64,000 nt of DNA from Cytophagaceae bacterium (lineage in GTDB: Bacteria; Bacteroidota; Bacteroidia; Cytophagales; Spirosomataceae). This document shows positions 26,771 through 31,628 of the stretch, piece after piece (position 1 is the first letter of the stretch; each line of letters begins with the position of its first letter). The stretch spans positions 186,001 through 250,000 of the forward strand of contig JAIXWL010000010.1 in the NCBI GenBank assembly GCA_027491315.1, in the 5' to 3' direction. The translations under genes were made by a program, and so were the position numbers. The notes below the pieces were generated by a model. It saw only the letters and a list, made by a program, of their open reading frames with translations, ran no database searches and was not told the DNA's origin.

Positions 26771-26842
26771 GGCTCCGTAGTTCAATGGATAGAATGTAGG
26801 TTTCCGGTACCTAAGATGCAGGTTCGATTCCTGCCGGGGCTA
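26771..26842 (+). tRNA. tRNA-Arg (anticodon CCG)
   Basis: The 72-nt sequence folds into a full cloverleaf. The acceptor stem is GGCTCCG/CGGGGCT (two G-U pairs), and the D-stem is GTTC/GAAT. The anticodon stem TAGGT/ACCTA carries loop TTCCGGT with anticodon CCG for the Arg codon CGG. The T-stem is GCAGG/CCTGC with loop TTCGATT, and the discriminator base is A. CCA is not encoded. Its 3' part is repeated exactly at 31146-31198, marking it as an integration target. Confidence 0.96.
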
Positions 26843-26866
26843 CAATATGACGCAGGTCAATGTGAT

Positions 26867-26896
26867 AGGACATTTCTTCAAGAGATGTCCTTTTTT
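26867..26896 (+). terminator. Terminator of tRNA-Arg
   Basis: The stem AGGACAT/ATGTCCT with an 11-nt loop is followed by six T. The same hairpin is repeated behind the tRNA-like fragments at 31221-31250 and 31401-31430. Confidence 0.8.
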
Positions 26897-27011
26897 ATTT
26901 GTAGTGAAATGGAAACAATCCGAATTTCTATAAATCGGGTCTTTTTGATATTCAATTCTTAACAAAAGATTTTCTTTCATCAAATTATTTTTGGCAACTT
27001 AATTTAAAGAT

Positions 27012-27413
27012 TCAGGACACAGGTGGATTATTGATAATTTCGTTCCTCTGAGCGTCTAATGCTAGTTTATCTAAACTATTAACATCAGGAGGAGAAATCA
27101 CTGTTGCCCAATAAACATCCCCTATCTTACTATTTTCTTTATTTTTAATTAAAACAAATCCAATTTTTTCGACGGTATTGCAAACAAAAACTGTATTATC
27201 CAATTGCGTAAACCAATATCCAATTTTAGTACTTTTCCCATTTTCAAACAAAGCTAAGTCCCCACTTGAATTATTTTGAAAATCTCCGTCATGAAACTCT
27301 AATGAAGGCGTGAATAAACAATATCCTTTTTCTTCCCATGAATAATAAATTTGTCCATAATGATTTACACATGCTTTAAATTGTCCAACTTGTGGCTTTA
27401 ACCCTATATACAT
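27012..27413 (-). CDS. Small protein of unknown function, paralogue B
   Basis: The 133-residue soluble protein has no signal peptide or membrane segment. It is recognisably related to the protein encoded just upstream. Shared features are a W-E-E-x-G-x-x-L-F stretch, a G-D-x-x-x-x-x-N segment, the block IGYW, then VFV...EKIGFVLIK, a YWA motif and a C-terminal LDKLALDAQRNEIINNP. The pattern suggests a small beta-rich fold. I do not recognise the family. It starts 10 bp after its paralogue and ends the four-gene minus-strand run of the island. Confidence 0.75.
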   Translation of the reverse strand: MYIGLKPQVGQFKACVNHYGQIYYSWEEKGYCLFTPSLEFHDGDFQNNSSGDLALFENGKSTKIGYWFTQLDNTVFVCNTVEKIGFVLIKNKENSKIGDVYWATVISPPDVNSLDKLALDAQRNEIINNPPVS

Positions 27414-27423
27414 AACTTTTCGA

Positions 27424-27834
27424 CTATTTTGGATTATTTAAAATGTGTAAATTTTTTGCGAACAATGCCAATCTATCTAAAGTTTTATTAGCTTGAACAT
27501 CTGATAAATTCGCCCAATACACTAAATAATTTTCACTTAATTTTTCTTTTACCAAAACAAAGCCAACTTTCTCTTCGGTAATGGAAACAAATAAAGAATC
27601 ATCTTTCTGCCTCAACCAATATCCAATATTGACATGTTTGCTATTTTTAATAGTTGTGACATCACCATTTGGAACTTCAAAGGTGCCGTCACCCCAAAAT
27701 TGCCCTCCTTTTTTTCCGTGTCCAAATAAATAAATACCCATTTCTTCCCATTTATAAAATGGAGAATTATCACTTCTATTGAAATGCAAATTAAATATTC
27801 CTATTTGTCTGTATTTTGGACTATATTCAATCAT
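27424..27834 (-). CDS. Small protein of unknown function, paralogue A
   Basis: The 136-residue soluble protein resembles the product of the next gene along most of its length (KWEEMGIYLFG, NIGYWLRQKDDSLFVSITEE, KVGFVLVKEK, YWANL, LDRLALFAKNLHILNNP). The two are tandem duplicates that have diverged strongly. It starts 40 bp after the Cys-motif gene stops and is therefore likely co-transcribed. No function is known to me; a role as substrate, regulator or immunity partner of the upstream VWA and Cys-motif proteins is speculation. Confidence 0.75.
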   Translation of the reverse strand: MIEYSPKYRQIGIFNLHFNRSDNSPFYKWEEMGIYLFGHGKKGGQFWGDGTFEVPNGDVTTIKNSKHVNIGYWLRQKDDSLFVSITEEKVGFVLVKEKLSENYLVYWANLSDVQANKTLDRLALFAKNLHILNNPK

Positions 27835-27874
27835 AATAAAAATTTATTTAAAATGAATAATAAGTAATAATATT

Positions 27875-28870
27875 TTAATTACATAAATCTATTCTTTTTC
27901 TTTCTCCTCGAGCCCCTTTGATGTAGTAATATTTAGCCAACTCTTTGCCTAAATTTTTTTCAAAGTTTAATTTAATCTTTGATATCTTTTCTGATGCAGA
28001 ATTACTTAATGCATTGCACATATCATCAATTGATTGCTTCATTTCTGTCAGTGACCCTAGTGGAGAAAAGCTAGAATAAATGTCATATAATTCTTGTTTA
28101 TGATTAATTAAATCCGTTAAGTGAATACCTTCAGGATATTTTAGAAAAAGCATATATAATGCTTTTTCTAGTGGAGTCATTCGGAGTTCCAATTGTCCAT
28201 AATCAGGAATCATAATTTTATAATCAGTAGTTATCAATATTGGACTAGGCTTTAAATGTTGACGCATATTCTGTGCAAATAACATTTTGATTCGTAGTGA
28301 CTCCAATATTTCAAAAATATGATTAATTACAGGGGGGGATAATTTGAGTGTTAATCGTTCCATACATGTTGGACAAATATCTGCCGTACGCATTTTTAGA
28401 ATTACATCTTTCTTATTTTGACAATAATCATTAACACATCCAATTGGTTCTCTATGTAAGAGGTTTACTAATTCTTTTTCATTATTAACCATTTGTTTCT
28501 GAATCATTAGTGCTACTATATGATACGCCACAGGTAGTTCAGTCGGACAATGAATGAATCGCTCCCAATCTCCAGCATGAACAAAACCGTTTGTTGGGTT
28601 ATTGACATCCAAATAGCCAAAGAAATTATTGAAATTAGGTTTCTGTGTCAATAAGAAAATAAAAGTATCTTCAGGTATTGAATGGTTAATTCGGAGTTTT
28701 TTACAAATGTCAAATAACTCGGACCAACTTAAAACAGGTTTCTCTGGCAAAGGGATAGACTCATCCATTCCTGAAAACCTGCACATACCTGAAACTGATT
28801 GAAGTAAGTGAATTACGGATTCAAATGTTTCGTTAGATACATCTTCACCTCTAAATAAGGTTGCTTTCAT
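27875..28870 (-). CDS. Protein with a four-Cys motif and conserved C-terminal domain, function unknown
   Basis: I start it at the ATG at 28870, one base after the VWA gene's TAA (TAAAATG); a TTG 27 bp upstream is less likely. The 331-residue protein has a putative metal-binding set, Cys145, Cys150, Cys166 and Cys169 (GCVNDYCQNKKD and ADICPTCMERL). The C-terminal region MTPLEKALYMLFLKYPEGIHL to YYIKGARGERKRIDL looks like a helical DNA-binding-type or response domain. I have a memory of similar C-termini in many Bacteroidota proteins but cannot name the family. Translational coupling to the VWA gene suggests the two proteins act together. Confidence 0.8.
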   Translation of the reverse strand: MKATLFRGEDVSNETFESVIHLLQSVSGMCRFSGMDESIPLPEKPVLSWSELFDICKKLRINHSIPEDTFIFLLTQKPNFNNFFGYLDVNNPTNGFVHAGDWERFIHCPTELPVAYHIVALMIQKQMVNNEKELVNLLHREPIGCVNDYCQNKKDVILKMRTADICPTCMERLTLKLSPPVINHIFEILESLRIKMLFAQNMRQHLKPSPILITTDYKIMIPDYGQLELRMTPLEKALYMLFLKYPEGIHLTDLINHKQELYDIYSSFSPLGSLTEMKQSIDDMCNALSNSASEKISKIKLNFEKNLGKELAKYYYIKGARGERKRIDLCN

Positions 28871-28871
28871 T

Positions 28872-29903
28872 TTATTTTTTGGAGTATAAATCGCCAAGTG
28901 AATCGCCGCTACGCTTCTTAATTAAATAGTCATCCATCGAATCAGATAAGCGATTCCAAACATCTTTACCCATTGATTTTTTATTAAAAACAATCGAATT
29001 TTGACGTTTGATTTCCATCATTTCAGCCATTTCAATTGCATCAAATGTAGCTCCCAAATAACTAAATGTCCATTTTCCCGACACTTCTTTGGAGGTAATT
29101 AACTGGCGAATTTGGTCCAAATCAAATAACCTACTAGCATTTTCATATCCATCAGTTAATATAATGAAAACAACCGTATCATCAGGATTATTAACATGTT
29201 TGTCAATGCTGTTAATTCCAATACCTATTGCATCATACAGAGCAGTATTTCCGTTTGGGAAATAGTTGTGTATTGTTTGTTCTAACATCTGTTGAACTGT
29301 CAATTGTTCAAAAATAGGATTCACCTGTGAATTAAAAAATGTTAACCCTACTCGTATTTCTTGTTCAGGAAATTTGTTAGCTAATTCTATAATTTTATTA
29401 CGCTGCTCAAACAAACCATTAATTGTTTGTTCCTTACAATCATACATCGAGCCGCTTTCGTCAACTAGTAAATGATAAAATGTTTTAGGTTTAGATTCTA
29501 TAACATTAATATAAATAGAATCTGGATATTTACCACCAAATACATATTCAGTTACAGGGCATAACCAAAGAACATGTCCAGATGGGTTTGCAATATAGTA
29601 TGCACCATAATCAACAGGTGCATGGCCAACACTATCTAATAAATTTTTATCCATACCCATATGTGTTTTATTAAGTGCAAAAGTTTGTTCTGGGTATGGA
29701 TTAGTAGAAATTTGAATAGTAACTTCATTTTTATTATTCGAGAGTACTTCTAAAAATGTATCTGCACCTGCAACCATCATCAAATTTGCTTTGGTGCCTA
29801 ATCCTTCTTCTAAAAATTCAGGTAAATCGATATACCAAATTCCATCGGTATCTTTGTAAAATCTGTGGGTCATTTCTTGCACGTTGTTGTTTTGATTTTG
29901 CAT
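28872..29903 (-). CDS. VWA-domain protein with DUF6717-like N-terminus
   Basis: The 343-residue protein has no signal peptide. The N-terminal 130 residues (TDGIWYIDLPEFLEEGLGTK, NLMMVAGADTFLEVL, VLWLCPVTEYVFG) resemble DUF6717. From about residue 140 a von Willebrand factor A domain follows with a complete metal-ion-dependent adhesion site: Asp148-x-Ser150-x-Ser152, Thr220 in NGNTALYDA and Asp251 in LTDGYENAS. VWA proteins scaffold complexes, often with AAA+ ATPases or in conflict systems; no such ATPase is here. It is the first gene of the minus-strand run in the tRNA island. Confidence 0.85.
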   Translation of the reverse strand: MQNQNNNVQEMTHRFYKDTDGIWYIDLPEFLEEGLGTKANLMMVAGADTFLEVLSNNKNEVTIQISTNPYPEQTFALNKTHMGMDKNLLDSVGHAPVDYGAYYIANPSGHVLWLCPVTEYVFGGKYPDSIYINVIESKPKTFYHLLVDESGSMYDCKEQTINGLFEQRNKIIELANKFPEQEIRVGLTFFNSQVNPIFEQLTVQQMLEQTIHNYFPNGNTALYDAIGIGINSIDKHVNNPDDTVVFIILTDGYENASRLFDLDQIRQLITSKEVSGKWTFSYLGATFDAIEMAEMMEIKRQNSIVFNKKSMGKDVWNRLSDSMDDYLIKKRSGDSLGDLYSKK

Positions 29904-30245
29904 GTTGTTTTTTGTTTTGAATTAAAATCTGAAACAAATTTCGCATGAAATAGAGTGCAGAATTGGAAGTTACAAGCTTGTAAGTATGACTAAAACTTTA
30001 ATTTTTTCAAAAAAATCCATGATAAATAAATTAAAAAAATATAAAAATTGACTAGACTGGCTACCTTTAAGTTCTCAGATTATCATAAAAAGCCTCTAAG
30101 ACTTTAATTTAATTTTTAAAAGACAAAGGAAAGTGATACTTTATATTGGGAAAAAACCAAATGAAATTTTCTAAACTTCAATTTGTAAGTGTTCTTAAAC
30201 AATTTAAAGTTGAGAATTGAAGAAAAAGCCTTTAAATGTAAATCA
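29904..30245. other. Divergent intergenic region of the island
   Basis: Very AT-rich, 342 bp, between the VWA gene and the plus-strand membrane protein. I see no gene, strong hairpin or clear -7 element here. Promoters for both directions must lie in it but cannot be placed. Confidence 0.5.
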
Positions 30246-30869
30246 ATGAAAAAACTATTATTAGTAATAAGTTGGATACTTTTCCCCCCAATTTTTCTTT
30301 ACATACTATTTCAAAATAAAACTCTTGATACACGAAGAAAGAGGATTGGTTATTTTTCAATTATTATTTCACCATTTACTATTATTATTTTATTTACACT
30401 GATTGTCTGGGCGGGGCAATACAATAATTTTTCCATTGACGAAATGGAAAAATTACTAAATATTGAAATCAAGGGTGATTATTCAGTGAAAAAAAACGAA
30501 ATTATTTCGAATGGTAATCAAGATTATAAAGCCACAGTGTTAATTCGGTTAACTGACGAGTCATTTTCAAATCTTATTAGTCAAATTGAAAAATCTAAAT
30601 TTTTCAACCTAAATCAGGAATTTTATGGTAATGATGAATTAAAATGGATAAAAAGTGATACGGCTGTTTATTGGAAGGTAAGAAATTATTTAGAGGTGGT
30701 AAAGTTAACGGGTTATTGGATTAAGAGTGATAGCCTTACATTCGAATTTTACGAACCTACGTTAAGTGATATTCCGAATTCAGCTATACTATTTCATAAA
30801 GCATACATAGTCGAAGCCAACATTTCAAAAAAAGATAAAACTTTGAAATTTGTATATACTAAATATTAA
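30246..30869 (+). CDS. Small membrane-anchored protein of unknown function
   Basis: From the ATG at 30246 the protein has 207 residues. Two hydrophobic helices (about residues 1-21 and 35-56) are joined by a basic loop, and a polar C-terminal domain of 150 residues follows (IEIKGDYSVKKNEIISNGNQ, TVLIRLTDESFSNLISQIEK). I do not recognise the family. It is the only plus-strand gene of the island, divergent from the VWA run, and its relation to that run is unclear. Confidence 0.65.
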   Translation: MKKLLLVISWILFPPIFLYILFQNKTLDTRRKRIGYFSIIISPFTIIILFTLIVWAGQYNNFSIDEMEKLLNIEIKGDYSVKKNEIISNGNQDYKATVLIRLTDESFSNLISQIEKSKFFNLNQEFYGNDELKWIKSDTAVYWKVRNYLEVVKLTGYWIKSDSLTFEFYEPTLSDIPNSAILFHKAYIVEANISKKDKTLKFVYTKY

Positions 30870-31145: not shown

Positions 31146-31198
31146 AATGTAGGTTTCCGGTACCTAAGATGCAGGTTCGATTCCTGCCGGGGCTACAA
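31146..31198 (+). repeat. attR-like copy of tRNA-Arg 3' part
   Basis: Identical over 53 bp to 26793-26845. It has the anticodon arm and T-arm but not the 5' acceptor strand, so it is not a functional tRNA. Confidence 0.9.
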
Positions 31199-31220
31199 AA
31201 CGACCCATGGTCAACAAAAA

Positions 31221-31250
31221 AGGACATTTCACAAGGAGATGTCCTTTTTT
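31221..31250 (+). terminator. Duplicated tRNA-Arg terminator hairpin
   Basis: AGGACAT/ATGTCCT stem followed by six T, as at 26867, placed at the same distance behind the tRNA fragment. A further copy is at 31401-31430. Confidence 0.75.
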
Positions 31251-31400
31251 ATTTGGAGTGAAATGGGAACTTGTGCAGCAGATTTGTGTAGCAGAACACC
31301 CATTTTGTAATCGCGTAGGTTTCCGGTACCTAAGATGAGGCCGGGGTCGCGTCCGACTCGATTCCTGCCGGGGCTACAAAACGACCCATGGTCAACAAAA

Positions 31401-31430
31401 AGGACATTTCACAAAGAGATGTCCTTTTTT
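31401..31430 (+). terminator. Duplicated tRNA-Arg terminator hairpin, second copy
   Basis: Same stem and T-run as the copy 180 bp earlier, with one loop difference (AAAGAG for AAGGAG). Confidence 0.75.
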
Positions 31431-31628
31431 ATTTGGAGTGAAATGGGAACTTGTGCAGCAGATTTGTGTAGCAGAACACCCATCATGAAATATTGTAGAC
31501 TTCTGGTACCTAAGATGAGGCCGGGGTCGCGTCCGACTCGATTCCTGCCGAGGCTACAAAACGACCCATGGTCAAATAAAATTTATGAAAGGTGGTCTAG
31601 AATCGAAAATAAGCAACAAGTCAATAAC

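Follow-up and report, generated by a model that had tools for sequence, protein, structure and literature searches.

The 64,000-nucleotide window analysed here, a stretch of a Cytophagaceae bacterium whose coordinates are used throughout, carries a two-gene unit that is probably an autoregulated transcription module, with its second product as the DNA-binding part. The first gene (28872..29903, minus strand, 343 amino acids) encodes the VWA protein, in which a DUF6717 domain is fused N-terminally to a VWA domain with a complete metal-ion-dependent adhesion site (MIDAS). The second gene (27875..28870, minus strand, 331 amino acids from its ATG) encodes a protein with four conserved cysteines, here called the Cys protein, which is predicted to join a pseudo-archaemetzincin to a winged helix and is proposed as a transcription factor. 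The initial annotation had combined this pair with two small downstream genes, S1 and S2, into a candidate four-gene system; the conserved unit is the VWA gene plus the Cys gene, joined in some lineages by DUF6717, either fused or as a gene of its own. No description of such a regulatory module was found in the open-licence PubMed Central (PMC) literature with DUF6717, archaemetzincin-variant or operator terms. An unannotated protein family thereby gains a likely role, one that experiments can address directly through a candidate DNA site.

In Pfam and NCBIfam, the Cys protein stays below every curated cut-off, and the archaemetzincin family (Peptidase_M54, PF07998) is not among its Pfam matches. 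Likewise, neither PADLOC at E ≤ 1 nor PHROGs at E ≤ 0.1 gives a match. The AlphaFold2 model, built from 63 aligned sequences, scores a predicted local distance difference test (pLDDT) of 93.5 and a predicted template-modelling score of 0.87. In this model, residues 1–182 (28325..28870, minus strand) adopt a metzincin fold that most resembles archaemetzincins. Foldseek against the PDB returns two matches below 1e-3, both chains of the archaemetzincin AmzA (3zvs, best E 1.3e-4), and the top four VIA-align entries are all archaemetzincins, with Z of 13.5, 12.7, 12.4 and 12.3 and a root-mean-square deviation (rmsd) of 2.9–3.1 over 148–158 aligned residues; the first, 3lmc, is titled merely 'zinc-dependent peptidase'. 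Other metzincins, such as snake-venom and ADAM proteins, score Z 11.2 and lower. Residues 208–331 (27878..28249, minus strand) are modelled as a winged helix of the OmpR/PhoB type, matching GlnR (8hml, Z 9.4) and SaeR (4ixa, Z 9.2) with an rmsd of 2.4–2.5 over 88–90 residues. The conserved C-terminal domain of the earlier description is thus a predicted winged-helix fold, and together with the archaemetzincin-like Cys region it points to a regulator.

In the residue pattern, the layout H139-x5-C145-x4-C150-x15-C166-x2-C169 is invariant at all five residues in 63 of 63 aligned sequences, so that the C-x4-C...C-x2-C motif first noticed in the window is real; it recurs in 79 of 80 Cys-family open reading frames of at least 200 amino acids, and two relatives (L097, L101) carry one extra residue after the invariant His. 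The catalytic zinc motif HExxH is present in none of the 63 sequences and none of the 80 reading frames. With positions assigned by eye, Tyr replaces the first His in 58 of 63 sequences and the catalytic Glu is kept in 28 of 63, while position 147, the Met-turn position, is Met in 16 of 63. The H-x5-C spacing equals that from the third archaemetzincin His to the second Cys, a correspondence also read by eye. When the four-Cys site of the window, C-x4-C-x15-C-x2-C, is set against the CX4CXMX17CXXC part of the fingerprint printed in PMC3427221, HEXXHXXGXXHCX4CXMX17CXXC, the register suggests that one Cys has moved. The Cys protein thus shares with archaemetzincins the modelled fold, the His at the third-ligand position, the four Cys closing in C-x2-C and, in part, the Met-turn Met, but differs in the absence of HExxH, in the apparent displacement of the first site Cys and in the extra C-terminal winged helix. 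Apparently, it is a catalytically dead archaemetzincin fold joined to a winged helix in the predicted model.

The VWA protein matches DUF6717 (PF20475, E 3.4e-23) over residues 12–134 (29502..29870, minus strand) and the Pfam VWA family (E 4.6e-10) over residues 145–275 (29079..29471, minus strand), in agreement with its earlier assignment as DUF6717-like with a full MIDAS. Across the window and its paired relatives, the DxSxS...T...D residues are preserved as D/S/S in 47 of 47 non-gap rows, T in 50 of 50 and D in 49 of 50; these counts were scored by alignment columns, a strict regular expression having caught only 24 of 50. The DUF6717 domain was modelled with a pLDDT of 93.4 and has no significant fold match, with no Foldseek hit below 0.1, and no paper on it was found in the open-licence PMC literature.

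Relatives were collected by a pattern scan of one genome per species over 84,980 species, which gave 88; the best 80 of the 88 form the locus set (L numbers), alongside sampled genomes (G numbers). In 57 of the 80 loci, the Cys gene has a VWA gene next to it on the same strand, and a profile gives an identical count; of the remainder, 5 are cut near a contig end, 17 have no detected VWA gene and 1 (L111) has no Cys reading frame. The expectation that the genes recur together therefore holds for the VWA–Cys pair as an operon but not for S1 and S2. DUF6717 is fused in 4 loci and separate in 13 by single-sequence search, and a profile finds it in 20 of 80. VWA and Cys distances are strongly correlated (Mantel r 0.87, reached by 0 of 2000 permutations) over 50 pairs, comprising the window, L026 and 48 of the 57 VWA-adjoining loci. 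In several groups, mostly labelled Flavobacteriales, the neighbours of the pair (core genes by eye) stay constant while the proteins diverge down to 56–62% identity. Independently, a VWA-only search of 150 family genomes found 9 besides the window's own; in five of these loci, once extended, the VWA gene is followed at 35–80 bp by a Cys gene (profile E 4e-95 to 1.5e-109), a sixth is truncated at the contig end, and G415, G312 and G332 have no Cys gene nearby, G415 having one elsewhere. No conserved third gene was seen, since no family is matched by more than 4 of 97 nearest neighbours. These neighbours were drawn from 58 loci, one or two each, leaving out genes under 100 amino acids or cut by a contig end; the other 22 of the 80 loci were set aside for synteny, as near duplicates or, for L111, for want of an intact Cys reading frame.

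The distribution of the Cys protein is patchy. Labelled taxa of the 80 loci are mostly Bacteroidota, with a few Ignavibacteria, one Balneolales and one Omnitrophota; the Streptomyces label of L042 is doubtful, given a Cys protein that shares 89% identity with the one in L041 (Chitinophagaceae). The window protein as query finds the family in 10 of 296 phylum genomes, one match containing stops, and the profile in 13 of 296, some partial; within the genus, 5 of 38 genomes carry the Cys gene. No tblastn match was found in phage records, and none was confirmed in IMG/VR, where the scan was shallow and used a single peptide pattern. Two Prevotellaceae plasmid matches cover residues 153–329 only.

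Upstream of the operon lies a palindromic candidate operator, TTACAAGCTTGTAA (29970..29983, no strand assigned), recognised by conservation across relatives and followed after 31 nucleotides by the TTTG of a -7-like promoter element (29935..29938, minus strand). In the window alone, a site with at most two mismatches arises in 37 of 100 shuffles, so its significance comes from conservation. The palindrome TTACAAGCTTGTAA is common to the upstream regions of 15 operons (the window and 14 loci). In a scan of about 980 kb of the 80 loci (989,361 bases less 8,960 of L111), the exact 14-mer precedes 11 of 71 operons having at least 100 nucleotides upstream and occurs nowhere else; allowing one mismatch gives 22 operons and four other sites, all in L095, L104 and L106. 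Because the misses showed variants such as TTGCAAGGTTGCAA, the core was widened to RCAASSTTGY. This core lies upstream in 45 of 53 operons with a VWA gene and, counted by hand-made synteny group, in 32 of 38; among windows drawn at random from the same loci, it is present in 20 of 3369. In the VWA-found set, which was not used for widening, the core precedes the VWA gene in 6 of 6 loci, with TTTG 31 nucleotides (five) or 32 nucleotides (one) past it, and no operator lies near the three VWA genes that have no Cys gene next to them. Matches to the operator string in the open-licence PMC literature concern only human placenta, rat and HIV.

The spacing between operator and promoter is mostly constant. 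In the first set, TTTG starts 30–32 nucleotides past the 14-mer in 39 of 49 cases, any other distance occurring at most twice. The -7 box of Flavobacterium psychrophilum sigma-A is given in PMC9723704 as TAnnTTTG at -12 to -5, which would place the operator near -53 to -40. Exact TAnnTTTG is present in 10 of those 39 promoters, and a TTG lies 17–23 nucleotides ahead of the -7 box in 4. A -33 TTG upstream of the -7 box is usual in Bacteroidota promoters; its absence from most promoters here suggests, on sequence grounds, an activator-dependent operon promoter.

In the favoured mechanism, a dimer of the Cys protein would bind the RCAASSTTGY palindrome at about -53 to -40 and most likely activate its own VWA–Cys operon, given that the promoters mostly have no -33 TTG. 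We infer that the Cys protein also holds zinc. The VWA protein would carry a divalent metal in its MIDAS and would most likely contact the Cys protein or a peptide signal, thereby setting the state of the regulator, with a metal, redox or damage cue as the likely input. In the window strain, the same transcript probably runs on into S1 and S2. If this is correct, the sensor half of a gene regulator has been made from a protease fold, which would extend the CarG example to a more general one, and a set of small VWA proteins gains a defined partner.

Several known systems resemble parts of this arrangement. CarG of Myxococcus xanthus, described in passages of PMC3427221 and PMC4374960 as an archaemetzincin homologue that has no proteolytic activity and works in transcription, needs its four Cys (PMC3427221); it differs in being 170 residues long and acting with CarD (PMC4374960), whereas the Cys protein carries a DNA-binding domain of its own and is paired with a VWA protein. 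A redox role for the archaemetzincin four-Cys site is voiced as speculation in PMC3427221. The OmpR/PhoB-type regulators GlnR and SaeR share the modelled C-terminal DNA-binding fold, but no receiver domain is seen in the Cys protein, which has a dead metalloprotease fold as its N-terminal half. The TerY-P triad (TerY-like VWA, PP2C and zinc-ribbon kinase), which a section of PMC11090510 hypothesises to be a metal-sensing switch, similarly sets an intact-MIDAS VWA protein beside a zinc-site protein; unlike it, the five reading frames of the insert that carries the operon match no kinase or phosphatase family, and PADLOC gives no match at E ≤ 1. The vWA-MoxR ternary conflict systems have a VWA component in common, and according to PMC7159879 their vWA is believed to bind a peptide via its MIDAS. 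They differ from the present unit, in which no AAA+ match occurs among the insert reading frames and the VWA protein is partnered by a pseudo-protease predicted to bind DNA; the missing MoxR ATPase or protease partner had been remarked on at the outset, and Pfam indeed matches none among the five. The terms 'archaemetzincin' and 'winged helix' are absent from the main text of PMC7159879, and no paper on an archaemetzincin-variant protein of this kind was found in the open-licence PMC literature. As a separate observation, the VWA-less relative L107 has an AAA gene directly ahead of its Cys gene.

Several points weigh against an autoregulated module. At the level of the fold, winged-helix matches occupy just 3 of 50 VIA-align rows among the matches listed, and true archaemetzincins are matched weakly in a profile–profile comparison (probability 1.7%, P 0.029); archaemetzincin homology therefore rests mainly on the fold and the residues, although the weak alignment still sets H139, C145 and C-x2-C in register. 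At the level of the unit, the 17 of 80 loci with a Cys gene but no detected VWA gene count against it, and the Mantel statistic ignores species kinship. The 45 of 53 is not a blind figure, the core having been widened on the same data set; the six VWA-found loci are few and mutually related; and the argument from the -33 TTG to activation is indirect. The input signal and the contact between VWA and Cys proteins are likewise points that we infer.

The predicted operator could also belong to another factor, and this leads to the reading that an unlinked regulator binds it while the Cys protein serves otherwise, for example as a zinc-dependent scaffold for the VWA protein. Binding of the operator by the Cys protein is a prediction, RCAASSTTGY lies near the Cys gene in only 3 of 18 scanned VWA-less Cys loci (15 of 18 being without it), and G306, in which no Cys gene was found, has 7 operator–promoter pattern matches against 2 for the control. 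The Cys protein is, however, the sole predicted DNA-binding protein of the unit, and in the VWA-found set the operator accompanies 0 of 3 VWA genes without an adjacent Cys gene and 5 of 5 with one, one more locus being cut by the contig end. The exact site, moreover, is present once each in 4 of 13 genomes scanned and absent from 9. An unlinked regulator is therefore judged unlikely. Much more improbable is a Cys protein that still works as a zinc protease and cuts substrates brought to it by the VWA protein: the archaemetzincin fold and the invariant His and four Cys would fit it, but HExxH is lost throughout, and by eye the first His has mostly become Tyr while the catalytic Glu survives in fewer than half of the sequences.

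A role in anti-phage defence or a stress island, in which the VWA and Cys proteins sense infection and S1 and S2 are effectors, is also improbable. It draws on the position of the locus on a tRNA island, on an MjaI endonuclease beside the Cys gene in L025 and on neighbours that match MkoA models (3 of 97) and methyltransferase models (2 of 97); here 86 PADLOC models (version 2.0.0) matched neighbours at E ≤ 1e-5, and these figures are among the 25 models listed. A Mokosh link was rejected, as just two related helicase genes stand beside two Cys genes, which is too few. Against defence, none of the four proteins matches PADLOC at E ≤ 1, in line with the earlier view that no nameable defence system is present. 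Furthermore, 0 of 10 tested hotspot cargo proteins from 7 other genus genomes match PADLOC, no neighbour family exceeds 4 of 97, and several lineages keep stable neighbourhoods even as protein identity drops to 56%. On the whole, the suggested defence role finds little backing, none of it specific.

With the autoregulated module as the preferred reading, its reach beyond the operon was gauged from further sites. The exact operator occurs once in the window's own genome, at the VWA–Cys operon, and the operator–promoter pattern gives 3 matches there against 2 for a reversed control, which does not justify naming further targets. The pattern is not specific on its own, as its matches in G306 show. 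Rufibacter roseus (L095, G464) has 5 of 6 pattern matches within 8.2 kb near its Cys gene, with 1 in the control. Among operator–TTTG pairs in the 80 loci, 42 of 63 precede a Cys, VWA or DUF6717 gene, and other pairs, such as one before a DprA-family gene (L095), are leads. Tentatively, and at a level of belief that falls short of even, the unit would represent a so far undescribed class of one-component bacterial regulators composed of a dead archaemetzincin and a winged helix, with the MIDAS-bearing VWA protein of the same operon setting the regulator's state. It would have a self-amplifying promoter and, in some genomes, targets close by, such as histone-deacetylase- and DprA-family genes, and it would also travel as a switch on tRNA islets. 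Equally tentatively, such a switch would be triggered by metal, redox or DNA damage and would carry strain-specific payloads on tRNA islets.

Some further pairs were noted. At L080 10605, L104 2386 and 7380, and L106 1901, an operator is followed by TTTG at 29–33 nucleotides, and these sites precede genes of one histone-deacetylase-like cluster, of which the Pfam scan covered the L106 member. In a few loci, AlkB-like, UmuC/UmuD-like and SOS-associated-peptidase-like genes were recognised by eye near the pair. The damage-type neighbours lie at L038 9974–10612, L062 16194–16808, L260 7747–9493 and L052 310–2321, and from sequence they hint at a link to DNA damage.

In the window, the operon continues into S1 (27424..27834, minus strand, 136 amino acids) and its paralogue S2 (27012..27413, minus strand, 133 amino acids), which are 40–41% identical, as their pairing as two small paralogues implied. 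The coordinates agree with four genes on the minus strand separated by gaps of 1, 40 and 10 bp; S1 and S2 start 40 and 10 bp behind the preceding genes, so the same promoter would cover them. S1 and S2 were nevertheless found only in their own genome, in 1 of 150 family and 1 of 296 phylum genomes. Their profile matches nothing in the scanned loci of relatives, no relative was found in IMG/VR, S1 has no match in phage records, and the best match to PDB sequences has only E 1.4. The four genes are thus not one system, because S1 and S2 occur in no other genome searched, and the four-gene claim is rejected. S1, an orphan, and S2 are probably a strain-specific payload sharing the operon transcript.

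The operon lies in a 4.35-kb insert at a tRNA-Arg (ccg) gene (26771..26843, plus strand), which serves as the integration site. The left repeat (26793..26916, plus strand) consists of the tRNA 3' end and a terminator-like hairpin, and the right repeat (31146..31270, plus strand) closes the insert; a 62-nucleotide core, 95% identical, lies at 26793–26854 and 31146–31207, and extends with gaps to about 124 nucleotides. The tRNA island proposed at the outset is therefore real. Besides the operon, the insert holds one outward reading frame (30189..30869, plus strand, 226 amino acids) with no family match, and its G+C content is 26–34% across most of its length, compared with 36–42% upstream.

The query of the preceding gene plus tRNA-Arg matches 34 of 38 genus genomes, partly or wholly. 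The sequence after the tRNA is variable in 20 stretches from 17 genus genomes, some genomes having cargo in common, and several of these stretches bear second tRNA-end copies. Tested cargo in relatives is metabolic, surface, mobile or unknown, with examples including a sulfatase with its modifying enzyme, an FG-GAP protein, a DegT aminotransferase and an integrase; in G306, a Phage_integrase protein adjoins the tRNA. Because the cargo is mixed and varying, the tRNA-Arg site looks like a general integration hotspot, and a defence hotspot was rejected.

Several minor observations concern individual relatives and domains. In L029 (8250–8987), L030 (8605–9369) and L032 (8389–9111), shorter relatives of the Cys protein (240–254 amino acids) keep H...GC..D...C..C without C150 and the winged-helix part, and their ends read like a membrane anchor. 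In L036 (7712–8701, on the same contig as L136), from the same genus and 69% identical, an in-frame stop interrupts the Cys gene, but the VWA gene is open. A VWA-less branch of Cys proteins (L027, L114 on the same contig as L137, L138 and L139) adjoins recombinase-like and ParB-like or methylase genes, most labels being given by eye, and is apparently mobile-element cargo. For the DUF6717 model (29502–29903), each of the top 30 VIA-align rows is chain H or G of an RNA polymerase (Rpb8/RpoG); with a best Z of just 5.2 this is a lead only. A BFVD search has an unnamed viral best match at E 1.6e-3 and none below 1e-3. DUF6717 is present in seven Cellulophaga phage records, and relatives of the VWA domain (28872–29510) occur in 214 phage records, mostly of Streptomyces, Microbacterium and Pseudomonas phages. 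Finally, two more partial copies of the tRNA-Arg 3' end lie past the right repeat, at 31315 and 31538; the three graded copies across 31146–31575, about 180 bp apart, are probably scars of repeated integrations.

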